Shown here: positions 2,774 through 30,421 of the stretch, one piece after another
Position numbering within the stretch: position 1 is the first letter of the stretch
Layout: each line of letters opens with the position of its first letter
Virus record (IMG/VR): IMGVR_UViG_3300025889_000406
Coordinates: 1 to 35,849 of that record
Reading direction: 5' to 3' (one strand)
Length of the DNA: 35,849 bases
DNA from: a virus
Position numbers and translations under genes: made by a program
The notes under the pieces: model-generated
Seen by the model: the letters and a program-made list of their open reading frames with translations, nothing else
Databases searched by the model: none
Told to the model about the DNA's origin: nothing

Positions 2774-3979
2774 ATGGCAAATAGCCTGTTAACCATTGAT
2801 ATGATCACCCGGAAAGCTCTCCAGATCTTGGAGAACAACCTGGTTATTACCCGTAACGTCAACCGTCAGTACGACGACAGCTTTGCTGTTGAAGGTGCCA
2901 AGATCGGTTCGACCCTGCGCATCCGCTTGCCTGACCGCGCTTTGGTGACGGACGGTGCAGCCCTGCAAGTTCAGGACGACAACGAGCAATTCACAACTCT
3001 GTCTGTTTCCAGTCAGAAGCATATCGGCGTGAATTTCACTTCTGCCGAACTGACCATGCAATTGGACGACTTTGCAGACCGTGTTCTGAAGCCTCGTATC
3101 AGCCAACTGGCAGCCTCGATTGATGCGGACGTTGCCAACGCTTACAAAAGCATTGGTCAAAGCGTTGGCACACCTGGCACCACGCCTGGCACTTCTTTGG
3201 TTCTGTTGCAAGCTCAACAAAAGCTGAACGAAAGCGCTGCTGGCATGAGCCCCCGTTACGCCACGGTTAACCCTGCCGCCAACGCTGGCTTGGTTGAAGG
3301 CATGAAGGGCCTGTTCAATCCTACCGACACCATTTCTAAGCAGTTCAAGAATGGCATGATGGGCACCGGCGTCTTGGGCTATGACGAGATCAACATGTCT
3401 CAGTCCATCAAGGTTTTGACGACCGGCACCCGCACCAACGGTACTGTTACCTCTACCATCAGCGCTCAAGGCACCAGCACTCTCTCCTTGTCTGGTGTTG
3501 GCGCTTCTGCCACCATTAAGCAAGGCGAAGTGTTCACCATTGCTGGCGTGTTTGCTGTTAACCCACAAACCCGCGAGTCCACTGGTTCGCTGCAACAGTT
3601 TGTTGTGACTGCTGATGCTGTTGCATCAGGTGGTGGCGTTGCATCTGTCACCGTGTTCCCAGCCATCTACACGGCTGTACACGCTCTGGCAACTGTGGAT
3701 TCCTTCCCAGTAGCAACCGCAGCTGTGACCTTTGTTGGTTCTGCATCTTCTCAGTACCCGCAAAACTTGGTGTACCACAAAGATGCGATCACCTTTGCCA
3801 CGGCTGACCTGTTGCTGCCTCAAGGTGTTGATATGGCTTCTCGCGCTGTGCATAACGGCATTTCGCTGCGTATCGTGCGCCAGTACGATATCAACAACGA
3901 CCGTATGCCTTGCCGTATTGACGTTCTGTACGGGTACAGCGTGATCCGTCCTCAAATGGCAGCCCGTATCTGGGGCTAA
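2774..3979 (+). CDS. Major capsid (coat) protein, P22 gp5-like
   Basis: 401 residues starting MANSLLTIDMITRKAL, with the P22 coat family pattern: an N-arm, a KIGSTLRIRLPDR strand, the F-TSAELT..LDDF and RVLKPRISQLAASID helices, and a C-terminus ending R-I-D-V-L-Y-G. The Ser/Thr/Gly/Ala-rich stretch at about 218-335 fits the Ig-like insertion domain of P22 coat, which assists folding and stability. P22 coat is 430 aa. It builds the icosahedral shell on the scaffold encoded just upstream. Codons are uniform and G+C-richer than the fibre genes, as expected for a highly expressed gene. AAGGAATG provides the SD. Confidence 0.9.
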   Translation: MANSLLTIDMITRKALQILENNLVITRNVNRQYDDSFAVEGAKIGSTLRIRLPDRALVTDGAALQVQDDNEQFTTLSVSSQKHIGVNFTSAELTMQLDDFADRVLKPRISQLAASIDADVANAYKSIGQSVGTPGTTPGTSLVLLQAQQKLNESAAGMSPRYATVNPAANAGLVEGMKGLFNPTDTISKQFKNGMMGTGVLGYDEINMSQSIKVLTTGTRTNGTVTSTISAQGTSTLSLSGVGASATIKQGEVFTIAGVFAVNPQTRESTGSLQQFVVTADAVASGGGVASVTVFPAIYTAVHALATVDSFPVATAAVTFVGSASSQYPQNLVYHKDAITFATADLLLPQGVDMASRAVHNGISLRIVRQYDINNDRMPCRIDVLYGYSVIRPQMAARIWG

Positions 3980-3987
3980 TACTGAAC

Positions 3988-4007
3988 GGGGCTTTGGCCC
4001 CTTTCTT
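3988..4007 (+). terminator. Weak terminator-like hairpin after coat gene
   Basis: GGGGC (3988-3992) pairs with GCCCC (3997-4001) over a TTTG loop, followed by the pyrimidine-rich TTTCTT. The stem is only 5 bp and the T-run is broken. It may act as a partial terminator or protect the coat mRNA 3' end rather than stopping transcription fully. Confidence 0.45.
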
Positions 4008-17927: not shown

Positions 17928-18121
17928 CAAAATGGAATTTCCTCAATCCATTCTGGGCATTTGTTGAATTCGTGCGTAAACTCGTCTGGCGGCTTCACGT
18001 CAAAAAGGCTGCACCAGCCTGCTTCGTTGTAGTTGTCGCATGTGTGGCAACACCTCGGCACTGGTTCTTTCTTTCTTGCTCGGTATAACACAACAGCTTC
18101 TGGTTCTTGCGGCTTTGTCAT
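17927..18121 (-). CDS. Small Cys-rich (zinc-binding-like) protein, 64 aa
   Basis: The ATG at 18121 overlaps the helicase stop as ATGA and lies 7 nt from AAGGGA, whereas the ATG at 18127 would leave no spacing for the SD. The start is MTKPQEPEAVVLYRARKKE, followed by RCCHTCDNYNEAGWCSLF and a later FNKCPEW: five Cys and one His, arranged like a small zinc-ribbon. Comparable short proteins often stand between helicase and VRR-NUC genes in phages. DNA or protein contact is likely. The function is not established. Confidence 0.65.
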   Translation of the reverse strand: MTKPQEPEAVVLYRARKKEPVPRCCHTCDNYNEAGWCSLFDVKPPDEFTHEFNKCPEWIEEIPF

Positions 18122-19701
18122 TTCCATTCCCTTCGGATGACTCGGTAGAACTTCCCATCCTTTTTGTACTCAATCAATGATGGGGGACGTGAACCCTTCA
18201 TTGAAGCTACTGCCTCATCTAAGCCCTGTGCGTTCTTCTCTACTCCTGCAAGCCTGGCGATCGTTACAAAGTTCTGGGCGGCCTTTTGACCTGCATAGCC
18301 ATCATGCAACACCGGCAGGTATTCAGTCACTGGCGCGTCGCTCAGGCCTCCGTAATAAGTCACAGCAAGCATCTCTTTGCCACTGGTGCGGCTCATGTGC
18401 TTACGCCATGCCCAGCTCGTTACCTCCAGCTCCAGCCCCTGGATGCCCATAATGTCATCCATGTGCAGCACAAGTTCCTTCTTTGCTGGCGGCGGGAACT
18501 CATGCCCACAGGCCGGGCACTTCAATGCAGAGATCGCACACAGCTCGTCGCAGTTGTCGCACACCTTAACCGGCGCTTCACCGTTGCCAGACCCGGCTTT
18601 TTTCGGAGGCTGTACGTTGGTGATGGGGCCATGCGTACTCACCACCCCGGCAAAGTCCAGCACCAGGCAATGATCGGTATGGCTCTTTGGGCGGAGACCA
18701 CGACCTGCCATCTGAACGTAAAGACTTGCCGACATGGTGGGACGTAGCATGGCGATCAGGTCAATGTCTGGATAGTCAAAGCCTGTCGTCAAAACGTTGG
18801 CATTCGTTAAAGCTCTAATCTTTCCAGCTTTGTAGAGCGTCAAAATGCGTTCACGCTCCGCTTTCGGCGTTTCCCCTGTCACGCACTCCGCAACGATTCC
18901 ATAAGCGTTTAGCGTATCGGCAACGGCCTGAGCATGCTTTACCCCTGCACAAAAAAACAGCCATGCTTTGCGGTCTCCAGCCAAACTCAAGACTTCTTTA
19001 ACAGCTGATTTGTTATTAAAGTCTGTGTTAACAGCGGCTTGAAGCTCTGACTCTATGTATTCGCCTCCCCTCTTGTGTACGCCATCAACATTTAATTTTG
19101 ACGTGGTAATTTTGGAACGTAATTTAGACAGGTGACCCTTATGGATCAACTCCTCAATGCTGACCGGCTCAATCAAATCGTCAAACAGCGCGGGTTTGTC
19201 AGTAATGAGGCCATGCCCTAGCCGGTAAGGTGTGGCTGTAAGCCCGACAACCCGCATGGCTGGATTGATGGCCTTCAGTTCTGCCAACAAACTCCGATAA
19301 CCGCCTTCTTCCTTGTGGTTCACGAGATGGCATTCGTCAATCAACACCAAGTCGATATGGCCCAGCTCTTTAGACTTGTTGCGTACTGACTGGATCCCGG
19401 CGAACGTAATAGGCTCGCCAAGTTGCTTCTTACCGATACTTGCGCTATAAATACCCATTGGCGCTCCAGGCCAGTGGAGTCGCATTTTCTCCGCGTTTTG
19501 CTCAATCAGCTCTTTGACGTGAGTGAGCATCAAAACTCGGGTCTCAGGCCACTGCTGCAATGCGTCTTTGCACAGAGCAGCCACAATGTGGCTTTTACCT
19601 GAGCCTGTTGGGAGCACTAAGCAAGGGTTCCCTTCGTGTCCAGCGGCAAACCATTGATACAACTGATCAATAGTGCGTTGTTGGTAGTCGCGTAGCTTCA
19701 T
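18118..19701 (-). CDS. SF2 DNA helicase (DEAD/DECH type) with zinc ribbon
   Basis: 527 aa from the ATG at 19701, which overlaps the methylase stop as ATGA (a 19767 start would intrude into that gene). Motifs are complete: Q-type start MKLRDYQQRTIDQ; Walker A LPTGSGKS (30-37); DECH (122-125); motif III TATP (155-158); motif VI Q-M-A-G-R-G-L-R-P (330-338). A four-Cys zinc ribbon (Cys381, 384, 395, 398) follows. It unwinds DNA using ATP and probably drives branch migration or fork processing together with VRR-NUC. The C-terminal ~120 residues are a family-specific extension. Confidence 0.92.
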   Translation of the reverse strand: MKLRDYQQRTIDQLYQWFAAGHEGNPCLVLPTGSGKSHIVAALCKDALQQWPETRVLMLTHVKELIEQNAEKMRLHWPGAPMGIYSASIGKKQLGEPITFAGIQSVRNKSKELGHIDLVLIDECHLVNHKEEGGYRSLLAELKAINPAMRVVGLTATPYRLGHGLITDKPALFDDLIEPVSIEELIHKGHLSKLRSKITTSKLNVDGVHKRGGEYIESELQAAVNTDFNNKSAVKEVLSLAGDRKAWLFFCAGVKHAQAVADTLNAYGIVAECVTGETPKAERERILTLYKAGKIRALTNANVLTTGFDYPDIDLIAMLRPTMSASLYVQMAGRGLRPKSHTDHCLVLDFAGVVSTHGPITNVQPPKKAGSGNGEAPVKVCDNCDELCAISALKCPACGHEFPPPAKKELVLHMDDIMGIQGLELEVTSWAWRKHMSRTSGKEMLAVTYYGGLSDAPVTEYLPVLHDGYAGQKAAQNFVTIARLAGVEKNAQGLDEAVASMKGSRPPSLIEYKKDGKFYRVIRREWK

Positions 19702-20255
19702 ATGCTCCCCCACTGAGCGGCCATAGCGTCTGCAATCCCTTGATACGTTTTGGAACGTAATTTCCATCTATCAGTCGATGGGGGCATCCGATGAATCCGG
19801 GCCTCTCTGCCTTCAACGATGTCGGTCGGCGTAAGTAGCGGTAGACCTTTCAGCCAAAGGCAAGTTGCTTTTGTTTCTCCGTGTCCGAACTGCCAAGGAT
19901 GGATAATCTGGTCGGGCTTGCGCCAAACAGTTGACATGATGCAGATCGGGTTCTCGATGGCCATACGAGGGATGTCCGCGTTGGCCAACGCCATAAAGAA
20001 ATCAACCGCTGCTTGCTGGCGTCCATCCTTGCGCTTCGCTTCGAAGTGCCGTGCCCCACTCACTGACAGGTGTGTGCATGGCGGGTGAGCGATCATCAGA
20101 TCCCACCCGTTGTTGATGATGTCGAACACGTTTCCTTGGTAGTGCGGCCCGGGCGTGTCAGTTGGTAAAAGGTCGCAACTCATGGCGTCATGCCCTCGTG
20201 CAATGAATGCGTCTCGCACAGCGCCGGAGTATTCACAAGCAATTAGTACTTTCAT
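19698..20255 (-). CDS. Small cytosine-C5 methyltransferase-like protein
   Basis: 185 aa from the ATG at 20255 (ATGA overlap with the upstream stop). MKVLIACEYSGAVRDAF resembles the SAM-binding loop. HPPCTHLS (Pro-Cys at 59-60) matches motif IV with its catalytic Cys, and AIENP (101-103) resembles motif VI ENV. The C-terminal QGIADAMAAQW could be motif X. Real 5mC enzymes are 300 or more aa with a target-recognition domain, and this one lacks it. It may be a DNA modification enzyme of a compact phage type or a degenerate variant. It is coupled with the Cas4-like nuclease and the helicase. Confidence 0.7.
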   Translation of the reverse strand: MKVLIACEYSGAVRDAFIARGHDAMSCDLLPTDTPGPHYQGNVFDIINNGWDLMIAHPPCTHLSVSGARHFEAKRKDGRQQAAVDFFMALANADIPRMAIENPICIMSTVWRKPDQIIHPWQFGHGETKATCLWLKGLPLLTPTDIVEGREARIHRMPPSTDRWKLRSKTYQGIADAMAAQWGSI

Positions 20256-21271
20256 CCAGTCACCCTCGACCCAGGCCATTCGCCTCTTAGCTTCTGGATT
20301 GCCTCATCGGCGCAAGCATCAGCATTGGCCAGCAGCTCTTTGCTTGAATAAACGCCATTTCCCGGTTCCCCATTTGCCAATGCTTTGCCGTTCACTATGT
20401 AGATGGCTTGCCACTCGCTTGCGCTCTCTTTGCGCTCCCACGGCACCAGATCCGGGTGCAGTACATGGCTTTCGCATCCAATGCGTTGTGCATCCAGTGG
20501 AATAGCGTCATCCCACTTTGCGCAGTGCCATGTATCGTCACTGAATGCCGAGGAATGTGCGCAAGTGCGGCAATTAACTTGCTTCGTCGTCTTGCTGCCA
20601 AAGCATTGATCGTGGCCTGCGCAGTACCTGCACTCATACCACGTTGGATCCGCGCTCAAAGGCTCCGGCATGCGGTCTGACAAAGTGATGCGGCGGCCTC
20701 GATCTACCAGCTTCTGAGCTGCTTCCTTGTTTAATTCAATGCGCTCTGTATGCATCCGATCGTCGTCTTTGCAGACTGCCACATACAACGCACGGGTTAA
20801 CCCTGTGCCCAGCATGTAGACCTGCATTTGAGCCCAGTGCATCGGCTTTGCGACCTGTACGCCTTTGGCTTTTAACTCATTGAAGGACTTCAGCGAGTGC
20901 GTCTTGAACTCAGCAACGTGAGGAGTTTTCGTAGCGCCTGGAACGCCCTTCTCAATCCGAGCATCAAGAGAACCGCTAACGTGGCAGCCAAACTCAACCC
21001 GGCTCTGACCTTCGCTGGGAGTCCGAACATCAAGCCCAATAGCACGAAGATCGCTGATAATTTGTTGTTCTTCATTGTGACCTCTACGAAATAGCCGCAG
21101 CATGCGGCCTGAAAATTTCTCAACAACTGCCCAGCGGAAACTTAGCCACAGCCAGCGGTCACACTTGTGACCCAGCATTGAAGCGCCCAAATGCGGCCGG
21201 GGTTGCTCCTGGCGCTCTTCGTGTACTGCGTCAATGAGAGTTGGTATAGAATCAAGGTCTGGTATTTGCAT
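20252..21271 (-). CDS. Cas4/RecB-like PD-(D/E)XK nuclease with four-Cys cluster
   Basis: 339 aa. It contains the signature of iron-sulfur RecB-like nucleases: Cys37 in GHKCDRW, G-S-L-D-A-R-I (Asp103), V-A-E-F-K-T (Glu121-x-Lys123), QMQVYM (148-153) and a later C-x2-C-x5-C (Cys214, 217, 223) in ECRYCAGHDQCF. The Cys37/C-x2-C-x5-C layout is that of Cas4/AddB Fe-S clusters. It probably resects DNA ends for the annealing machinery (DUF669 and Sak4-like) encoded upstream. AGGAGGA precedes the ATG. A second Cys/His-rich region (~234-264, C-R-T-C-A-H...C-A-K-W...C-E-S-H) is an unusual extra element. Confidence 0.85.
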   Translation of the reverse strand: MQIPDLDSIPTLIDAVHEERQEQPRPHLGASMLGHKCDRWLWLSFRWAVVEKFSGRMLRLFRRGHNEEQQIISDLRAIGLDVRTPSEGQSRVEFGCHVSGSLDARIEKGVPGATKTPHVAEFKTHSLKSFNELKAKGVQVAKPMHWAQMQVYMLGTGLTRALYVAVCKDDDRMHTERIELNKEAAQKLVDRGRRITLSDRMPEPLSADPTWYECRYCAGHDQCFGSKTTKQVNCRTCAHSSAFSDDTWHCAKWDDAIPLDAQRIGCESHVLHPDLVPWERKESASEWQAIYIVNGKALANGEPGNGVYSSKELLANADACADEAIQKLRGEWPGSRVTG

Positions 21272-21312
21272 GTTGTCCTCCTGTTTCTGCCCCCCGAAAG
21301 GCAGTTGCCATT

Positions 21313-21337
21313 GCCCCTCTTGCGAGGGGCTTTTTTT
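21313..21337 (+). terminator. Rho-independent terminator facing the plus direction
   Basis: GCCCCTC (21313-21319), loop TTGC and GAGGGGC (21324-21330) form a perfect 7-bp stem followed by seven T (21331-21337). This is a textbook intrinsic terminator, but only for rightward transcription, which is antisense to the operon here. On the operon's mRNA the same hairpin has A-tract before it and no U-run, and could shield the Cas4-like gene's leader. Confidence 0.75.
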
Positions 21338-21339
21338 GC

Positions 21340-21813
21340 TTACTTTTTAGCCCAAGGTGGCGCAGCTTTGGCTGGCGCAGCAGGTGCTGCGGTAGGCAGT
21401 CCAGAAATGGCGCCAATAACAGCCTTAAAGCCCTTCACCTCGTTGCGCTCGCCATAAGTCTCATCGGTCTTCACATCAAGCTTGATGACAAGGTTGCCGC
21501 CAATCAGTTGGTCGGTATCTGTGACACGGGCCAAACCAATCGCCCGCATAAGGTCGCCCAGTTGCTGACGACCGATCTCCTCGGCTTTTGGGTTGGGGTT
21601 CTTGATGTTCAGGTTGCCGAAGATCACACGACCTTGGTGCGTGGGGCCGGTGATGCTGTACTTAACGGCGATGTATTCGCCCGTGCCCGCCTTCGTCTCT
21701 TTGACCTCGGCGCCACTGATCGTTGCGGAATACCACCCAGCAGGCAAGGGGCTGTAGTCTTTTGAAGGCTGGGGCAGGTCGGAAACGTCAAAAGATTGTG
21801 AGAGAAATGCCAT
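21340..21813 (-). CDS. DUF669-like single-strand DNA-binding-type protein
   Basis: 157 aa. The characteristic parts are present: SDLPQPSKDYSPLPAGWYSATI, E-V-K-E-T-K.GTGEYI.V-K-Y-S-I-T-G, N-L-N-I-K-N-P-N-P.A-E-E-I-G-R-Q-Q-L and I-K-L-D-V-K-T-D, ending in a Pro/Ala tail with PPWAKK. I recognise this as DUF669, an OB-like ssDNA-binding phage protein that works with Sak4-type annealing ATPases. SD AAGGAAATAATC precedes the ATG. The neighbours (Cas4-like nuclease downstream, Sak4-like further upstream) fit a recombination module. Confidence 0.85.
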   Translation of the reverse strand: MAFLSQSFDVSDLPQPSKDYSPLPAGWYSATISGAEVKETKAGTGEYIAVKYSITGPTHQGRVIFGNLNIKNPNPKAEEIGRQQLGDLMRAIGLARVTDTDQLIGGNLVIKLDVKTDETYGERNEVKGFKAVIGAISGLPTAAPAAPAKAAPPWAKK

Positions 21814-21815
21814 GA

Positions 21816-22214
21816 TTATTTCCTTGTGATTGCAAAAGATGGCCGTGAGGCCGTAGTTGTGATTGCGTCAAGCAGAGGGGCCGTAATCGATTCGTGCGCA
21901 GACTTCCATGCGCTCATGTTGATCTCTGGCTTCCATCTAAACAAACTTGAGAGGTGTTCGGTGAGCCCGGCTTCCTCTGCTATGGCTTGCAGTTTATCAG
22001 CATTGACTTTTCGGTCAAGGCGACCAGAGACTTTTATTTCATAGAAGCCTGCTTGCTGGGTGGTGGTGCCTTCAAGCTGCTCAGGCAATGCCAGCGCCTC
22101 TACCATCTGATCTTCGATCATTCTGCGCCTGGCAGTGGCTTCTTTTTCCTCTACCTTTGCCGCTTCCCACTGTGCGGCCAAGAATAGAAGGTCTGTTTTT
22201 ATGAAGATTGTCAT
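21816..22214 (-). CDS. Phage helical protein, 132 aa, unknown, in recombination operon
   Basis: I start at MTIFIKTDLLFLAAQ because GGGGAAC precedes it, and the longer frame from 22391 would overlap the 79-aa gene fully. The first half is an amphipathic charged helix (WEAAKVEEKEATARRRMIEDQMVEA); the second has KVSGRLDRKVNADKLQAIAEEAGL, which resembles a phage family usually next to exonuclease and annealing genes (DUF7173-like, from memory). No catalytic motif is visible. It could be a nuclease-partner or inhibitor. Only 2 nt separate it from the DUF669 gene. Confidence 0.65.
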   Translation of the reverse strand: MTIFIKTDLLFLAAQWEAAKVEEKEATARRRMIEDQMVEALALPEQLEGTTTQQAGFYEIKVSGRLDRKVNADKLQAIAEEAGLTEHLSSLFRWKPEINMSAWKSAHESITAPLLDAITTTASRPSFAITRK

Positions 22215-22225
22215 GTGTTCCCCAT

Positions 22226-22465
22226 TTATCTCTGTGCAAAACCCAGGCGGCGCATGCCGAGTTCGATCAGCATCGCGGCATCTTCGAGTGCGTTCTCGCT
22301 GCGACTCATTGACGTTTGCCACTCTCCACCTGTACGTTTTCCAACGATTCCGACGCTGACAATCTGCCCGTCTTTTGCGTCTTGCAGCCACTGTTCAAGC
22401 AACAAAATAACGTCTTCATTGTTTGGGCCCACGGCTTTGATAAACGGTTTTATCTTGTCAGTCAT
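22226..22465 (-). CDS. Small phage protein, 79 aa, unknown
   Basis: The ATG at 22465 overlaps the stop of the upstream gene as ATGA, so translation is coupled. The product has V-I-L-L-L-E-Q-W-L-Q-D-A-K-D and I-V-S-V-G-I-V-G-K-R-T-G-G-E-W-Q, ending in an Ala/Leu-rich helix (LIELGMRRLGFAQR). It is soluble with no Cys or known motif. Comparable short proteins appear in early operons of proteobacterial phages. I cannot assign a function. Confidence 0.65.
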   Translation of the reverse strand: MTDKIKPFIKAVGPNNEDVILLLEQWLQDAKDGQIVSVGIVGKRTGGEWQTSMSRSENALEDAAMLIELGMRRLGFAQR

Positions 22466-22809
22466 GCGTTCTTCTCCTTGAGCTTGGCTTCGATTTCTCT
22501 GGCAAACCGGCGTATCCCATCCTCAGATAGACCCATTCGGCTGCCGTCAGACCAGATTTCTTCATCTGTCAGCCCTTGCCATTCGCGCTGAGGGGGAGCG
22601 GTGTAGAGTAAAGTATGCGGCGGTGCCCAGTTTTTGATTTCGGGCATACGATAAATGTCGCCTTCTCGATCCATCCACGCCACCGGCTCCTGCTCTGGCT
22701 GCTCCAGCGCGGCGCGGAGGGCATCAAGCTCGGCGTAAGTGTCGTAGTAACTGCTGGCGCGGAAAAGGACATCCAGCGCCTGCTGTGCGGCTTCACGTAG
22801 TTTGGTCAT
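22462..22809 (-). CDS. Ead/Ea22-like phage protein, 115 aa
   Basis: I start at the ATG at 22809 (MTKLREAAQQALDVL), which overlaps the upstream stop as ATGA, rather than 22851. The segment EPVAWMDREGDIYR and the later LLYTAPPQREWQGLTDEEIW are the well-known composite end of phage early accessory proteins. The first helix (QQALDVLFRASSYYDTYAELDALRAAL) is similar in composition to other such proteins. They are non-essential in lambdoid phages and their function is unknown. The C-terminal half is a stand-alone module shuffled between phages. Confidence 0.75.
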   Translation of the reverse strand: MTKLREAAQQALDVLFRASSYYDTYAELDALRAALEQPEQEPVAWMDREGDIYRMPEIKNWAPPHTLLYTAPPQREWQGLTDEEIWSDGSRMGLSEDGIRRFAREIEAKLKEKNA

Positions 22810-23036
22810 TTGTCCCCCCTTGCTCGGATAGCTGCTTCTATGCTCCGGCACTTATACCAATCTTGGTCTCCGTCGTAGCAATGCTCTTTGTGCTCGTTTG
22901 CTATTGCTGCGCAAGCTTCGCGTTCTTGTCTCTCTACGATGCGCATGATTTGTTCAATCCGATCAACCACATCTCGCATTTCTCTTTCGACTGAGGCAGT
23001 CCACCCCATGCGCTCAATGATTTCTTCTCGTGTCAT
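22806..23036 (-). CDS. Small helical phage protein, 76 aa, unknown
   Basis: The ATG at 23036 overlaps the upstream stop as ATGA. The product is strongly helical (EEIIERMGWTASVEREM, VVDRIEQIMRIVERQEREAC) and ends in a basic, Cys-containing tail (HCYDGDQDWYKCRSIEAAIRA). The E-R-E-A-C-A-A-I segment recurs in many small phage accessory proteins. Two Cys with a His nearby might bind a metal, but the case is weak. The function is unknown. Confidence 0.65.
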   Translation of the reverse strand: MTREEIIERMGWTASVEREMRDVVDRIEQIMRIVERQEREACAAIANEHKEHCYDGDQDWYKCRSIEAAIRARGDK

Positions 23037-23338
23037 GGCTTCTCTCCCAGTGCTTTGGCAATCGCGATGCGTGCGGCTTTGTGCTCAGGTAGGTCGGGGT
23101 GGAGCAGTGCCGCCGTTTTAATGAGTGCCTCCAGCAGATCAGGCGCAGCGGCAATCAGGCGGGCGTTTGACTCTAGTTCATTTGTTGGTAGCTCGTCTGT
23201 CATAAAACAAATTGGCCAATAGCCATCTTTGGAATTGTGTCTTTGGCTTTTGTAGACGATTTCGGTCGTGTAACGTGGCGCGGAATTGCCAACCTTATCG
23301 CCCATGCGAAACCATGGACCCGGCGTATGTTTGTTCAT
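23033..23338 (-). CDS. Small phage protein with ARLIAAAPDLLEAL signature, 101 aa
   Basis: The ATG at 23338 is chosen because it overlaps the preceding stop as ATGA within a repeat (see 23335-23355). It starts MNKHTPGPWFRMGDKVGN and contains ESNARLIAAAPDLLEALIK, one of the most widespread signatures of short early phage proteins. The HTPGPW start and AAAPDLLEAL helix define the family. Its function is unknown. It is the first gene downstream of the 115-aa cassette. Confidence 0.8.
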   Translation of the reverse strand: MNKHTPGPWFRMGDKVGNSAPRYTTEIVYKSQRHNSKDGYWPICFMTDELPTNELESNARLIAAAPDLLEALIKTAALLHPDLPEHKAARIAIAKALGEKP

Positions 23339-23355
23339 ACATTCCCCCCAATCTT
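23335..23355 (-). repeat. 21-nt direct repeat at gene junction (copy 1)
   Basis: Identical to 23679-23699. It encodes the last residues K-I-G-G-N-V, the stop, and the ATGA start of the next gene. The two copies flank a 344-nt cassette exactly. Recombination between them would remove one whole gene and keep both junctions intact. Confidence 0.9.
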
Positions 23356-23682
23356 CTTTTTTATTTTTACAACCATTGCAGCGGCTTTTACTATTGCCCT
23401 CCGGGTTGCGGCGTGTGCGTTGTCTACCTCTGCCCCCGTAAGGTTGCCCCACAACACACTCGTCTTTCTAGTCTCGTTTGCTGGCTCACAATCCCATACA
23501 ACAACCATTTGTTCGCCGTGAATTACTTCAATAAGGAAACCCAGCTTCACTGCTAGCCGCAGCGCGTCGCCGTCGTCTAAAAGAGGGTTCCATGCTTTTG
23601 GGTAATACTCGTCTTCATCTAGTCGATGAACGCCCAACCCAACCGCCTTAGCGGCTAATTCCAAAAGTTTACGGTCAGTCAT
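23335..23682 (-). CDS. Small phage protein, 115 aa, cassette gene
   Basis: Starts MTDRKLLELAAKAVGL and contains W-N-P-L-L-D-D-G-D-A-L-R-L-A-V-K-L, a pattern known from short phage accessory proteins. The middle is beta-rich (FLIEVIHGEQMVVVWDC), and a basic helix leads to K-I-G-G-N-V. Its final six residues and stop/start are the same as those of the upstream Sak4-like gene because of a 21-nt repeat. No active site is visible. It looks like a moron-like cassette whose loss or gain would leave the operon undisturbed. Confidence 0.75.
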   Translation of the reverse strand: MTDRKLLELAAKAVGLGVHRLDEDEYYPKAWNPLLDDGDALRLAVKLGFLIEVIHGEQMVVVWDCEPANETRKTSVLWGNLTGAEVDNAHAATRRAIVKAAAMVVKIKKKIGGNV

Positions 23683-23699
23683 ACATTCCCCCCAATCTT
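23679..23699 (-). repeat. 21-nt direct repeat at gene junction (copy 2)
   Basis: Second copy of the repeat at 23335-23355, covering the end of the Sak4-like gene and the start of the cassette gene. Identity is complete over 21 nt. The equal reading frame at both copies means a crossover would be seamless. Confidence 0.9.
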
Positions 23700-24356
23700 T
23701 GCAATCACAGCCCCCAGATCAGGGCTTTCCCACATATCAAGGCGGCCCGACCGATCCTTAGCTAACCAGACCCCATCCCCGTCGCACATCAAAGCTCGCT
23801 GAGTGTTACCGTCGGCGTCTTTTTCGACACGCAGGGCCAAAACTTCATCAAAAAAGTAAGGCAAAGCCTGGCCGGTTTTGTTACCCGGCATTGAAGGGCT
23901 GTACATCATCTTTGCAAGCTCGTCCTGGCTTTTCTCCAGCTTCGCGCTCATGTAAACGTGTCGCCCAGGCAGATCACGAAAAGCTCGAATGACATCGGCC
24001 ATTTGCTCCTGCATAGACCCGTAAGCTGCGCGGGGGTCTTTGTTGTGTTTCTTCTCGTAATTAAGAACCACCTCGGCGATTTCGCTGATTGAGTCAATGG
24101 CTACGGACTGAAAGCCTTTGGCCTCATCAGATTTTGTAAGCCATTCGTAAGCCTCACGCAGAGCATCCATTGAGCTTATTTCGATGAAGGGCACGTCGGC
24201 CCCGGCGATAGAAAGAAGGCCACCCTCGGCCGATAGGACTACGGGATTGGGCAGGGTAGGAATGAGGGAAGTTTTTCCTGCTCCCGCAGCGCCGTAGACA
24301 AGGAGCTTGACCCCGGAGGCGGCCAGTTGGCCGGTGGTTTTAAGATTGATTGCCAT
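23679..24356 (-). CDS. Sak4-like RecA-fold ATPase (single-strand annealing)
   Basis: 225 aa. Walker A GAAGAGKTS (22-30, Lys28) and Walker B-like Q-S-V-A-I-D-S-I (Asp88) are plain; EQMADVIRAFRDL and MSAKLEKSQDEL follow, as in phage nucleotide-binding (AAA_24) and Sak4 proteins. These are short RecA-like cores that anneal or pair DNA together with a single-strand binder such as DUF669. It lies in a cluster with DUF669, a Cas4-like nuclease, helicase and VRR-NUC, which backs a recombination role. The start has no strong SD and follows the Pro-rich peptide gene directly. Confidence 0.88.
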   Translation of the reverse strand: MAINLKTTGQLAASGVKLLVYGAAGAGKTSLIPTLPNPVVLSAEGGLLSIAGADVPFIEISSMDALREAYEWLTKSDEAKGFQSVAIDSISEIAEVVLNYEKKHNKDPRAAYGSMQEQMADVIRAFRDLPGRHVYMSAKLEKSQDELAKMMYSPSMPGNKTGQALPYFFDEVLALRVEKDADGNTQRALMCDGDGVWLAKDRSGRLDMWESPDLGAVIAKIGGNV

Positions 24357-25076: not shown

Positions 25077-25115
25077 TGTTGACACTATAACTTTGTGCGG
25101 CGTATGATGTCAACA
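25077..25115. promoter_or_regulatory. Two superimposed divergent promoters with inverted TGTTGACA operators
   Basis: Plus: TTGACA at 25079-25084, 18-nt spacer, TATGAT at 25103-25108. Minus: TTGACA (complement of 25108-25113), 18-nt spacer, TATAGT (complement of 25084-25089). Each -10 touches the other's -35, so RNA polymerase can use only one at a time. TGTTGACA (25077-25084) and its inverse TGTCAACA (25108-25115) form a perfect dyad. Starts would be near 25115 (rightward, HTH gene) and 25077 (leftward, 61-aa gene). Confidence 0.8.
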
Positions 25116-25382: not shown

Positions 25383-25468
25383 CCCCTAGGTGGGGGCTGG
25401 GACCCGTACACGCGGGGAGGTTGGCGCTTCGCCCAGCCTCCACCTAGGTGCTTCAGAAAGCGCCAACC
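25383..25468. repeat. Interlocking inverted repeats upstream of primase gene
   Basis: First pair: 25383-25402 and 25431-25450, complementary at 17 of 20 positions, including CCTAGGTGG and GGCTGGG. Second pair: GGTTGGCGCTT (25419-25429) and AAGCGCCAACC (25458-25468), perfect over 11 bp. The pairs interleave, so only one arm set can form at a time, or the RNA makes a pseudoknot. They sit in the 211-nt gene-free stretch before the primase gene and could be a regulatory leader or replication signal. Confidence 0.7.
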
Positions 25469-25539: not shown

Positions 25540-27432
25540 ATGACGAACCGATCAAAACTTGAAGCGGCTCTTACATATGCGTCTTGGGGCTGGAAAGTTC
25601 TTCCGGTTGTCCCAAACAGCAAAGTTCCCGCAACAGCGCACGGCGTACACGATGCAACGGACGACCCAGATCAGATCCGCGCGTGGTTCACATCAAACCC
25701 AGATCTGAACATCGGGGTAGCGGCAGGCCAAGCTTCCGGTCTTGTTGTATACGACATTGACCCACGCAACGGCGGACAGGACAGTTGGGACGAGTGGACG
25801 GCAAAGCACGGACAGTTGCCCGACGGAATCACAGCTTTAACTGCTGGCGGGGGCTACCACTATCTTGCAGCGTACCAAGATGGGATTAAGTCTTGCAAGC
25901 TTTTGGATGGCGTTGATCTTCTTTCAAATGGGCGCTACTTTGTAGCGTATCCGTCTGAGATTGAGGGCAAAACATATCAATGGGAAGCCTCAAGCGATCC
26001 ATTCGACGGTGTTGGTCCGGTCAGTATTCCTCAGAGTTGGCTTGCATCAATGCTTCCGGCAAAGAAAGAGCGAACAGCTTCAAATGATTCTTCAATCATT
26101 AAAGGCAACCGCAACTCGGGCCTAACCAGTCTTGCTGGGGCTATGCGCTCGTATGGCATGAGCGAATCGGAAATTCTGGCGGCTCTTAGCGTAGCGAATG
26201 AGACCAGGTGCGAAATTCCTTTGCCCAGTTCAGAAATTCGTCAGATTGCCCGGTCAGTCTCTCGATATGAGCCTAACAGCGACGTTGCAAGCTCGGTGGC
26301 GCTCGGTGCGGAAGCGGCCGAATCTTTGCTTGAGAATTTAGCGGCCCCTGCTGGTGACTATTTTCTAACCCGTGGCAGCTCGTTCATTGAGGAACCTTCC
26401 CCCACCAAGTGGATCATCAAAGAATGGTTAGCTGCTCATTGCGTCGCAATGATCTTTGGCCCGTCAGGGGCAGGCAAAAGCTTTATTGCACTAGACATGG
26501 CCTGTTCAATTGCGGCTGGCATTCCTTGGCAAGGCATAAAGACAAAGCCGGGCGTTGTGGTCTATCTCGCTGGCGAAGGCAACTACGGCATTCGCAAGCG
26601 GATTGCCTCGTGGGCAATTGAGCATCAAACCACCCAGCTCGACAACCTTCTCATCAGCAACAGACCCATTGATCTTGACAGCCCAAGAGCGGCGGCAGAT
26701 GTCATCAAGCTTGTCCGTTCAATAACTCAAGAACAGATCAGCCTGTTGATTGTGGACACGGTGAATAACCACATGAGCGGAGACGAAAATGCGGCAAGGG
26801 ATGTCCGGGCCATGGTCAATTCGTGCAGCACAGCAGCCTCAGCTTTGGGCGCCACAACAGTGTTTGTTCACCACACGGGGGTGAGCGAGACGGCACAGGG
26901 AAGAGAACGAGGCTCCAGCGCATGGCGAGGCGGCCTTGACTTCTCAATATATGTTTCTCGCACAACGGACAAAACAATCAAGATTGAGGCAAAGAAAGTA
27001 AAGGACGACAAAGAGCCAGAGCCAATATACGGATTGCTTAAACCCGTGGCGCTGGGCTGGAAAGATGAGGACGGAGAAGATATTACCGGTGCGGTTTTTG
27101 CAGTTACGAAAGACTATGAAGTTAAAGAGAAAAGCAAAGAATCAGATTATTCAAGGGATATCAAAAAGTTCATATCGTCTTGGAACGCGGCGGGACACGA
27201 GACAAGGAACGGACAACCGTATTTGTCCCGCAGCGCCCTCGTAGACCACCTAGTAAAGGACGGCTTAAGCCAGGCCACTGCCAACACTTATGCACAACCA
27301 GGGAAGAAGGGGAGGCTGATCAATAACCTCCTTTTGGCCGAAGTTATCGCACCATTTGAGCAAGGCTGGGTCGTCATTGAGCCCGTTACCGCCAGTTCAA
27401 TGATGCTTTTAGGCGGGACGGGCCAGCGTTAG
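25540..27432 (+). CDS. Primase-polymerase/RepA-type helicase fusion
   Basis: 630 aa from the ATG at 25540; the longer 680-aa reading would cross the interlocked inverted repeats. The N-terminal prim-pol (PF09250-like) domain has Y-D-I-D-P-R-N-G-G (Asp72, Asp74) and T-A-G-G-G-Y-H-Y (His107). A primase C-terminal helical module (about 190-242) contains GLTSLAGAMRSYGMSESEIL. The ATPase is RecA/DnaB-like with Walker A GPSGAGKS (307-314) and L-L-I-V-D-T (402-407), then V-F-V-H-H-T-G. Fusions of this type start phage and plasmid replication at an iteron origin. No polymerase gene is visible, so host polymerase is likely used. Confidence 0.9.
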   Translation: MTNRSKLEAALTYASWGWKVLPVVPNSKVPATAHGVHDATDDPDQIRAWFTSNPDLNIGVAAGQASGLVVYDIDPRNGGQDSWDEWTAKHGQLPDGITALTAGGGYHYLAAYQDGIKSCKLLDGVDLLSNGRYFVAYPSEIEGKTYQWEASSDPFDGVGPVSIPQSWLASMLPAKKERTASNDSSIIKGNRNSGLTSLAGAMRSYGMSESEILAALSVANETRCEIPLPSSEIRQIARSVSRYEPNSDVASSVALGAEAAESLLENLAAPAGDYFLTRGSSFIEEPSPTKWIIKEWLAAHCVAMIFGPSGAGKSFIALDMACSIAAGIPWQGIKTKPGVVVYLAGEGNYGIRKRIASWAIEHQTTQLDNLLISNRPIDLDSPRAAADVIKLVRSITQEQISLLIVDTVNNHMSGDENAARDVRAMVNSCSTAASALGATTVFVHHTGVSETAQGRERGSSAWRGGLDFSIYVSRTTDKTIKIEAKKVKDDKEPEPIYGLLKPVALGWKDEDGEDITGAVFAVTKDYEVKEKSKESDYSRDIKKFISSWNAAGHETRNGQPYLSRSALVDHLVKDGLSQATANTYAQPGKKGRLINNLLLAEVIAPFEQGWVVIEPVTASSMMLLGGTGQR

Positions 27433-27624
27433 GACAACGGGACAACGGGACAAATGTCCTGTCCCGATAGGATTTCGGCGGGACAAAGTGGGCACAGTTG
27501 GTTGTTAAAAAGTTAACCGGGACAACGGGACAGGACAGGGACAAATGGGACAAATGTCCTTTTGGCAAGGCAGAACGGGCGGGACAGGACAGGACAATAT
27601 ATTTATATATTGTCCGTTTGTCCC
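27432..27624. repeat. GGACA/TGTCC iteron-like array, candidate replication origin
   Basis: In 193 nt I count 12 GGACA and five TGTCC, most in GGGACAA. Forward copies start at 27432, 27440, 27448, 27481, 27520, 27528, 27533, 27539, 27548, 27582, 27587 and 27592; inverse at 27455, 27460, 27555, 27611 and 27619. GGACAAATGTCC recurs exactly (27448-27459 and 27548-27559). An AT-rich 24-nt palindrome closes the array (27592-27615). It lies directly after the primase-helicase gene, as iteron origins usually do. It contains no gene. Confidence 0.75.
27592..27615. other. AT-rich palindrome GGACAATATA-TTTA-TATATTGTCC
   Basis: A perfect 10-bp inverted repeat with a 4-nt loop, flanked by GGACA/TGTCC and with a core of 14 A/T bases. 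It is the lowest-GC stretch of the region and is suited to DNA unwinding (DUE-like) or cruciform formation. Confidence 0.7.
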
Positions 27625-27657
27625 GTCCTGATGCGGAAATAGACATAGGAGAGAGAG

Positions 27658-27825
27658 ATGAGTGAAGAGGAAGAGGTTGGGTTGGAAATGGAAAGCCGAA
27701 TGACTGAAGAAATGAAGCTTTGGTTCAGAAGACTCATCGAAGCAACCCACGCCGGGGATGAGCTCGGAGTCGCAAGGGCTGTTAAGCATTACAACGAGTT
27801 GCAACTTAAAGTTAGGAGACGCTAA
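27658..27825 (+). CDS. Small helical protein before terS, 55 aa
   Basis: ATAGGAGAGAG is a strong SD for the ATG at 27658, and the frame closes 1 nt before the terS start. The product begins MSEEEEVGLEMESRMTEEMK (very acidic) and ends in a basic tail (LKVRRR); the middle (LWFRRLIEATHAGDELGVARAVKHYNELQL) is helical. It is probably a small partner of the packaging or replication genes, but no motif is known. It is the first gene after the iteron array and is transcribed with terS. Confidence 0.7.
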   Translation: MSEEEEVGLEMESRMTEEMKLWFRRLIEATHAGDELGVARAVKHYNELQLKVRRR

Positions 27826-27826
27826 C

Positions 27827-28306
27827 ATGGATGATGGGATTGAAACTCCAAGACAAGAAATCTCGAAGAGGGGTGGGGCCAGGCCAGGGGCGGGTCAGCC
27901 TCCGCTTGTGCCAACAGACGAAGAGCGCGAGATGGTCGAGAAGCTTTCGGGCTTTGGCCTGCAGCAAGAGAGTATCGCGGCCATGGTGCGGGATGGTATT
28001 CACGTAGATACCTTGCGCACCCACTTCAAAAGAGAATTGGAATTAGGCCGTGCCAAGGCCAATGGGAAAATAGGTAAGACTCTATTTGATAAAGCAATGG
28101 CCGGAGATACTGGCTCATTAATATGGTGGACTAAGACACAAATGAGATGGGCAGAAACTCAAAAGCATGAAATAGTCCATACTGGTATCAGTATTACCGG
28201 GGCACTGGAGGCGGCGAAGGCCAGGCTGATCGCTGAGGACGTCATCGATGCGAAGCTGGTGGAGCCCCGGCAGATCGAAGATGGGTCTGGGCAAGGGGAG
28301 ACGTAA
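27827..28306 (+). CDS. terS: Terminase small subunit (TerS-like)
   Basis: 159 aa from the ATG at 27827 (a frame from 27758 would overlap the previous gene; AGGAG precedes 27827). RGGARPGAGQPPLVPTDEE is the lead-in typical of phage small-terminase proteins, and a helix-turn-helix follows at about 36-65 (VEKLSGFGLQQESIAAMV, HVDTLRTHFKREL). The C-terminal helix probably oligomerises. P22 gp3 is 162 aa. It would recognise the pac site, which in pac-type phages often lies in or near this gene. The large subunit is 2.2 kb downstream, separated by opposite-strand genes. Confidence 0.8.
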   Translation: MDDGIETPRQEISKRGGARPGAGQPPLVPTDEEREMVEKLSGFGLQQESIAAMVRDGIHVDTLRTHFKRELELGRAKANGKIGKTLFDKAMAGDTGSLIWWTKTQMRWAETQKHEIVHTGISITGALEAAKARLIAEDVIDAKLVEPRQIEDGSGQGET

Positions 28307-29410: not shown

Positions 29411-30421
29411 TTATCCTGCTTTTGCGGCCTCAATCCTGGCCTTAGCGATCTCAAGGTAATCAGCTTCTCGCTCGATGCCTATAAAGGCAAAGCCTTCAAG
29501 CTTAGCTGCTTTGCCGGTGCTGCCGGAGCCCATGAATGGGTCTAGGACGGTGCCGTTGGGTGGGGTGACTAGGCGGCAGAGGTATCGCATGAGGTCGGTG
29601 GGTTTGACGGTGGGGTGGGTGTTGGCCTCATCCCGATCCTTCTTGCTGGCTTTAGCGCAGTAGAAGAATCGGGCGGCGCTGCCGGTTTCGCCGGCGTAAG
29701 CATTACTCCTTGTGTTTGCGCCGATAACGCTGCCAAATATCCGCTTCTCTCCCTCCGGCCTTTCTAGACTCTTGGTGTACCGCCCGGCGGATGGCGTCTC
29801 CGGAAACAGCCCCACGACCTCATCGCTGCCGTCGTGGATCAGGTTGGCGGGCCAGCGGCCGACATCGGATGTGCCTGCTTGTCGAACTTGTTGTCGGTGG
29901 TCTGTTACGCCGAACTTCTGCCCCCCTGATGTTGTGAAGAAAGGAACCCGCTCTCCGTTTGTCGCCACCCTGCACCCATCAATATTCATCGCCCCAGTCC
30001 CATGCGCCAGCACATTCTCGGCCACCGTCCCAATCAACGGCTTGCGGGCCACTGTAATCGGCTCCAAAGCCGGCTTTAGGGCTGTGCCCCAGCCTTGCCA
30101 ATCATCCTTTAGGTTATGACTTTTCGGAAACCCACTCCCATACACCCACGCGATCATGTCGCGAATCTCAAACCCGGCGTCTTCAATGCGCACGGCCATT
30201 CGGTGTTGGGTGCGGGTTCCGGCAAAGGCTAGAAGGTGCCCGCCGGGTTTCAAAACTCGCAGGCACTCGGCCCAGACCTCTGAGCATGGCACGTCGTAGT
30301 CCCATTTCTTGCCCATGAAACTCAGGCCATATGGTGGGTCGGTAACTACCGAATCCACGCTGTTATCTGGCAAAGTGCGGAGGACTTCAAGGCAATCGCC
30401 GTGCAGCAAGATTGATTCCAT
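29411..30421 (-). CDS. DNA methyltransferase, DPPY type (N6-adenine/N4-cytosine)
   Basis: 336 aa with SD CAAGGAAAG. Motif IV T-D-P-P-Y-G (28-32) near the N-terminus and motif I D-P-F-M-G-S-G-S-T-G (294-303) near the C-terminus give the beta-class order. The central part (about 100-260), rich in Gly, Asp and Asn, holds the target-recognition region. HPTVKPTDLMRYL precedes motif I, as usual. It methylates adenine, or less likely cytosine N4, in specific short sites, probably protecting phage DNA from host restriction. No restriction partner is present. It is the first gene of the minus-strand island. Confidence 0.93.
   Translation of the reverse strand: MESILLHGDCLEVLRTLPDNSVDSVVTDPPYGLSFMGKKWDYDVPCSEVWAECLRVLKPGGHLLAFAGTRTQHRMAVRIEDAGFEIRDMIAWVYGSGFPKSHNLKDDWQGWGTALKPALEPITVARKPLIGTVAENVLAHGTGAMNIDGCRVATNGERVPFFTTSGGQKFGVTDHRQQVRQAGTSDVGRWPANLIHDGSDEVVGLFPETPSAGRYTKSLERPEGEKRIFGSVIGANTRSNAYAGETGSAARFFYCAKASKKDRDEANTHPTVKPTDLMRYLCRLVTPPNGTVLDPFMGSGSTGKAAKLEGFAFIGIEREADYLEIAKARIEAAKAG

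Follow-up and report, generated by a model that had tools for sequence, protein, structure and literature searches.

We propose that positions 27432-27636 of the window, a linear 35,849-bp IMG/VR virus record analysed over its whole length, constitute a replication origin, and that the protein encoded immediately upstream is a self-loading initiator acting on it. We put the probability of this reading, including the mechanism proposed below, at roughly 0.88. An origin beside its initiator had already been suggested by the first-pass annotation, and sequence comparison now lends this suggestion strong support: the array of iterons is present family-wide, many relatives carry DnaA boxes in the element, and the iteron word tracks the C-terminal winged helix of the protein.

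The array and the gene beside it

The 17 copies of GGACA or TGTCC reported earlier, 12 on the plus and 5 on the minus strand, were recovered in our count at 27432-27623. The array itself stands, but its description as consisting mostly of GGGACAA is slightly overstated, as the full heptamer is present in 7 of the 17 copies, with GGGACA in 10 and GGACAA in 10. The palindrome GGACAAATGTCC does occur twice, at 27448-27459 and 27548-27559. A chance origin had been judged very unlikely, and we agree: the highest count in 300 first-order Markov shuffles of the contig was 5 (Poisson P ~2e-25). The densest 193-nt stretch holds all 17 copies, against a maximum of 3 elsewhere in the contig. Contig-wide, GGACA is not over-represented (65 observed versus 70 expected), and the array is therefore a local feature. 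The element extends slightly past the previously annotated end at 27624, to about 27636 (Table 1). The change in GC skew near 24-27 kb follows gene orientation and thus adds little on the question of an origin.

Table 1. Features of the candidate origin and of its putative initiator gene in the window.
Feature	Position	Strand	Evidence
Initiator gene (630-aa protein)	25540..27432	+	Pfam, alignment of relatives, RSF1010 RepA profile match, AlphaFold2 and Foldseek
Predicted C-terminal winged helix, codons for ~aa 535-617 of 630	27142..27390	+	AlphaFold2, structural matches, word prediction
Putative specificity segment, helix-turn-helix, aa 576-599	27265..27336	+	Column analysis, L262/L271 pair
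Iteron block A: GGACA three times in direct orientation at 8-bp spacing, followed by two inverted copies	27432..27466	+	
Single iteron and AT-rich GTTGGTTGTTAAAAAGTTAAC, in the clade of the window only; possible unwinding region	27479..27519	+	
Iteron block B: direct copies with GGACAAATGTCC at the end	27518..27560	+	
Conserved spacer GGCAAGGCAGAAC (family form GGCAAGGCGAG / GGGCAAAACG)	27564..27576	+	
Iteron block C: GGGACAGGACAGGACA, 5-bp spacing, compare CCGTAACGTAACGTAAC in relatives	27578..27596	+	
Perfect dyad GGACAATATATTTATATATTGTCC with arms of 11 bp; relatives keep a dyad and an AT centre but have different arms	27592..27615	.	
Iteron block D: inverted copies	27611..27625	-	
Conserved right border GATGCGG	27630..27636	+	

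The inverted iterons bear on another possible function, that of an RNA element or terminator. The strand does fold better than its shuffles (z -6.6), but the inverted iterons account for the folding, and the word repeats in both orientations and not as a stem alone. As there is also no match in Rfam and no terminator-like site in the array, we attach next to no credence to a function at the RNA level.

The array lies, as stated previously, directly 3' of the gene for a prim-pol/RepA-type helicase, its first copy overlapping the last base of the TAG stop codon. The order with respect to terS (27827-28306) was likewise given correctly, with the addition that a 55-codon ORF (27658-27825) intervenes. 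The gene probably starts at the ATG at 25540 rather than at the GTG at 25390, since all relatives align from the methionine at 25540. Three domains were identified with Pfam: Prim-Pol (25567-25995), PriCT_1 (26101-26277) and a RepA-like RecA-fold helicase, AAA_25 (26383-26883). When solved structures were searched with a profile of the C-terminal 358 residues, RSF1010 RepA was the single family found (1g8y, hmmsearch E 3e-9). Foldseek matched the AlphaFold2 model (pLDDT 88) to RepA with a TMt of ~0.7. By sequence and predicted fold, the helicase is a member of the RSF1010 RepA family, with a putative hexamer as its active form.

No Pfam family covers the C-terminal ~100 residues, a domain of their own for which a winged helix fold is predicted with high confidence; this domain is our candidate for the iteron-binding domain. 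VIA-align placed it at Z ~6-6.7 to winged helices of the ArsR, MarR and H1 types, which is enough for the fold class only, and Foldseek with the isolated winged helix returned nothing at E<0.001. The P4 alpha protein was absent from the structural match lists of the winged helix, which says nothing against a relationship.

Several features of the gene neighborhood were also observed. Where the leftward gene block gives way to the rightward one, two near-consensus promoters, one on each strand, overlap at 25079-25113 (11/12 matches each). The leftward block (18118-24356, minus strand) encodes a DNA helicase, a Cas4-type exonuclease and a Sak4-like annealing protein, and phages of Idiomarinaceae and Salicola have a Sak4-type gene in the same place. 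A gene for a DNA methyltransferase (N6_N4_Mtase; 29411-30421, minus strand) is located between terS and the gene for the terminase large subunit.

Conservation of the element among relatives

Our sample consisted of 80 Prim-Pol relatives (55-100% identity), 80 relatives of sister proteins with a TOPRIM primase, and annotated phages. The GGACA array was found at or just past the stop codon in about 45 Prim-Pol relatives, and the same element with another word (GGGAAC, CGTACT, CGATAC, CGTAGC, CGTAAC or CGTCAC) in the other ones. The TOPRIM phages, which share the predicted system of winged helix and array, added GGTAAC, GGGTCA, GGGGGC, GGGAAC, CGTATC, CGTACC, CGGACC, GGTAC and GGTTCA. After curation, this amounts to 17 words so far over 157 labelled elements; loci L131, L157, L271 and L284 were labelled by hand from the sequence because automatic word detection was wrong, and L246 was left out.

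The scan of related phages proposed in the first-pass annotation gave a clear result. Of 151 evaluable relatives, 143 have a single 6-mer repeated five or more times in the 220 bp near the end of the gene; among 2518 background windows from these loci, the fraction is 3.3%. As for the eight relatives that fall short, the array lies further downstream in L181, L189, L231 and L238 and is weaker in L127 and L294, while L174 is truncated by the contig end and the eighth is L268. No recognisable array of the common type was found in L268 and a few other members. In L268, which is of the TOPRIM type, the usual element is missing and TTGTATAG-like and GTTAAC repeats are present instead (3572-3990). 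In one more distant helicase relative, L202 (MW202475), the C-terminal segment is altered and shortened, and a search of the 7-kb locus yielded no array. A gene that by eye resembles a PAPS reductase is inserted between initiator and array in L181 (4878-5730) and L189 (4863-5640), and the array is retained ~850 bp from the initiator. Additionally, four or five iterons form a second cluster 0.6-2.7 kb downstream in 12 loci of the CGTAAC class (L171, L173, L181-L183, L185-L187, L189 and L193-L195), for example at 7510-7544 in L181; in L181 and L189 this cluster falls inside the apparent 3' end of terS.

An exact 15-mer scan of IMG/VR mixed chance matches with arrays, a real array being present in 49 of 119 stretches. 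Two good relatives came from a scan of genome contigs, a truncated Thermomonas MAG contig and the gammaproteobacterial MAG contig L204, which carries a GGTAAC element. A single-sequence search from L155 gave nothing new. In IMG/VR viral contigs L018, L043, L052, L055, L082, L088 and L109, arrays of GGGACA/TTGTCCC were observed next to unrelated helicase genes or in their vicinity, in many cases immediately 3' of them; these helicases are VapE-like (PF05272) or combine DUF927 with the Cch HTH (PF18662), superfamilies other than that of the window protein. This suggests that the same word or rule is used in other initiator superfamilies, and origins with iterons downstream of the helicase gene may be far more widespread among phages. 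An array of a different kind was seen in the very GC-rich contig L032, with 21 GGACA in 250 bp (569-809) and no helicase relative in the available stretch of the contig.

Across the different words, the layout of the element is kept. Direct iterons and an inverted pair are followed by a spacer close to GGCAAGGCGAG or GGGCAAAACG, further direct iterons, which often have a 5-bp spacing (GGACAGGACAGGACA or CGTAACGTAACGTAAC), the dyad, a further set of inverted iterons and, as the right border, a sequence close to GATGCGG. In relatives, the center of the dyad is CTTTAG or CTATAG. Dyad arms of at least 9 bp were found in 53 of 114 elements versus 8 of 323 control windows, and the arms vary between elements yet stay complementary. 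This pattern fits selection acting on the dyad, and is compatible both with a cruciform and with a protein site.

The DnaA boxes in relatives offer independent evidence for an origin, as read from the sequences. A perfect box, TTATCCACA, is present in 49 of 122 non-redundant elements, and the total of 101 boxes is an approximately 30-fold enrichment over the ~3.4 expected (0.028 per element, estimated from the same loci). In the TOPRIM phages there are often two boxes before the array and one after it, at fixed positions. No perfect DnaA box was found in the element of the clade to which the window belongs, and the nearest match in the window, TTATGCACA at 27288, is at the level expected by chance.

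We also considered the possibility that the array is an operator through which the initiator, or a regulator, controls the downstream genes or its own gene, with no origin being involved. Iteron initiators often autoregulate, and there is a weak promoter-like match on the minus strand at 27624-27596. However, promoter matches are at chance, and the array is located 3' of its gene and before unrelated genes in different phages. Furthermore, 12-19 copies in alternating blocks go far beyond the needs of an operator, and the DnaA boxes in many relatives also speak against this explanation, which we regard as improbable.

Covariation of the iteron word with the winged helix

The C-terminal domain probably specifies the iteron word, putatively by binding to it. 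Within the Prim-Pol loci, identity in the winged helix predicted a shared word with an AUC of 0.981, against 0.701 for the helicase, 0.674 for Prim-Pol and 0.620 for PriCT, and within the TOPRIM loci the values were 0.947 for the winged helix and 0.760 for the helicase; these AUCs ignore the kinship of the sequences, which is addressed by a count on trees and by pairs of loci in which the word was swapped. By parsimony, the words require 28 changes on the helicase tree and 19 on the tree of the winged helix, the minimum being 16.

The swap pairs are nearly identical outside the C-terminal domain. Between loci L161 (CGTAGC) and L176 (CGTCAC), identity is 100% over Prim-Pol and 99% over the helicase, versus 49-52% over the winged helix. 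Likewise, L258/L279 (GGTAAC/GGGGGC) and L247/L270 (GGGAAC/GGGGGC) are ~98-99% identical in the helicase and ~50% in the winged helix. DNA identity within the pairs is ~90-100% until ~300 bp before the gene end, falls over the codons for the winged helix and the array, and is largely back ~250 bp beyond (~380 bp for L161/L176).

Homologs with the same primase and no GGACA repeat had been named by the first-pass annotation as an observation that would refute its reading of the array as a candidate origin. Such homologs exist, L129 and L130 (Prim-Pol 97% identical), and the proposed pairing nevertheless holds up, as they have a GGGAAC array in the same layout. This array is accompanied by a replaced helicase and winged helix, which supports the pairing. 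The Prim-Pol domains of L129 and the window are 97% identical and their terS genes are closely similar, but the helicase, winged helix and array of L129 are of the type found in TOPRIM phages. Taken together with the swap pairs, this indicates that the primase, the helicase and a cassette of winged helix and array recombine at different junctions, the latter two moving together. The comparison of ~160 relatives thereby shows, at the level of sequence, that the last ~85 amino acids and the DNA word have been exchanged together many times.

The same comparisons bear on whether the array is instead a packaging site (pac or cos) recognized by the small terminase. The pac sites of phages are often located in or near terS, and terS lies 200 bp downstream of the array in the window. 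The second, four-iteron cluster in the 12 CGTAAC-class loci, near the apparent 3' end of terS in L181 and L189, could be seen in the same light. However, the first ORFs past the element fall into 54 clusters over 136 loci and are mostly not terS, so that the adjacency to terS is incidental. Moreover, the word follows the winged helix of the helicase protein and not the neighboring gene, and the window and L129 have different words despite their closely similar terS. We therefore consider a role in packaging very improbable.

The residues that could set the word were narrowed down by column analysis, in which covariation with the word was seen at aa 582-584 and 589-592. The winged helices of L262 (GGGAAC) and L271 (GGTAAC) are identical except for three substitutions (V to Q, A to S and T to P), at the equivalents of aa 583, 589 and 590 of the window protein. 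Glutamine occupies position 583 in every protein that goes with GGTAAC, CGTAAC, CGTAGC or CGTATC, and in no protein that goes with GGGACA, GGGAAC, CGGACC, CGGAAC, GGGTCA or GGGGGC. We see in this pattern a lead, and not proof, toward a recognition code. The register is ambiguous in some words, and for this reason a strict base-by-base code is not claimed.

Origin function and known systems

The steps from DNA binding and melting through helicase loading and priming to the firing of the origin are ones that we infer, and one possible order of events is as follows. The C-terminal winged helix would bind the GGGACA words, and the bound copies would assemble two RepA-type helicase hexamers on the direct and inverted blocks. 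Melting could then take place at the AT-rich dyad or in the AT-rich middle, helped in many relatives by host DnaA at the adjacent DnaA boxes. The exposed strands would be primed by the fused primase, which is a Prim-Pol here and a TOPRIM primase in the sister phages. The C-terminal domain and the array would together make up a specificity cassette, exchanged by recombination as one piece, which would explain why relatives keep the layout of the origin and change the word.

A locus for helicase loading or copy control (incompatibility), with the true start elsewhere, would look identical. P4 alpha, which has an SF3 helicase, uses such a second site, crr, and P4 needs two iteron sites. The second small cluster 0.6-2.7 kb downstream in the CGTAAC-class phages is possibly a crr-like site of this kind. 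In the window, however, there is no second cluster, other 193-nt stretches having at most 3 copies, and the array is thus the only candidate site for its initiator. While a crr-like locus is a somewhat better alternative than an operator, we still think it unlikely, and favor the hypothesis that the array is the origin.

A more far-reaching hypothesis, for which we would put the odds slightly short of even, joins these observations. The winged helix and the array (~0.5 kb) may represent a plug-in cassette that is swapped on a constant backbone of primase and helicase, with words that are mostly xGNNNC. The window residues 582-584 and 589-592 may set the word, in which case specificity would be predictable from the protein, and the diversity may have arisen from competition between co-infecting phages or from defenses that target origins. 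The specificity of initiators for their origins is usually studied pair by pair. The 17 words, several clean natural swaps and a three-residue change provide a data set for deriving and testing a recognition code, the natural exchange amounting to a specificity-swap experiment that has already been run. They also suggest a function for intergenic DNA that has been annotated but left unexplained, in Alteromonas, Idiomarinaceae and Salicola phages and in many uncultured ones, and orthogonal small replicons could be of use as tools.

Initiators that act on iterons downstream of their own gene are already known as a kind. The RepA-type family, its diversity of words and the swaps appear to be undescribed, and no description of the origin or words of this family was found in the largely open-access literature searched. 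SaPI Rep and SCC Cch2 are helicases that bind short downstream iterons via a C-terminal domain (PMC7581432). As in SaPI and SCC Cch/Cch2, the phage initiator is a helicase with a C-terminal DNA-binding domain (predicted here) and short iterons directly downstream; the primase is fused or adjacent, a double hexamer has been proposed (PMC7581432), and the iterons of Cch2 are 5 nt long. Unlike these systems, which have DUF927 or D5/SF3 helicases, the phage family has a RecA-fold helicase of the RSF1010 RepA type, keeps the dyad, spacer and border, and displays 17 words and cassette exchange.

RSF1010, with RepA, RepB' and RepC, also combines a primase, a helicase and iterons, and RepA has the most similar helicase fold and is the one sequence relative with a solved structure. 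In RSF1010 the primase and the helicase are separate and the iterons are read by a separate protein, RepC (PMC4234260), whereas in the phage family the primase, the helicase and the putative reader are one chain. Because the word tracks the fused winged helix, a separate reader of the RepC type would be unnecessary. P4 alpha unites in one chain a primase, a helicase and a winged helix by which the origin repeats are bound (PMC4234260), and the window protein resembles this description. It differs in that it has no SF3 domain (in Pfam AAA_25 only, with a RecA fold). In pRN1 ORF904 and the Bordetella phage BIP-1, a Prim-Pol, a helicase and a C-terminal winged helix are likewise followed by an origin just downstream, which is conserved in shape and not in sequence; this origin is a large stem-loop without iterons, the helicase is of the SF3 type and no sequence-specific binding was found (PMC4234260). 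The element in the window, in contrast, consists of iterons and a short dyad only.

Finally, in the RepA/origin modules of Vibrio PLE the initiator domain and the origin swap together, with a specificity that was shown experimentally (PMC8263062), and in geminiviruses iterons of 5-6 nt are read by the cognate Rep (PMC12548392). These proteins are unrelated to the phage family and have N-terminal binding domains (RepA_N or HUH Rep), but here as there, the DNA-binding domain and the origin change together.
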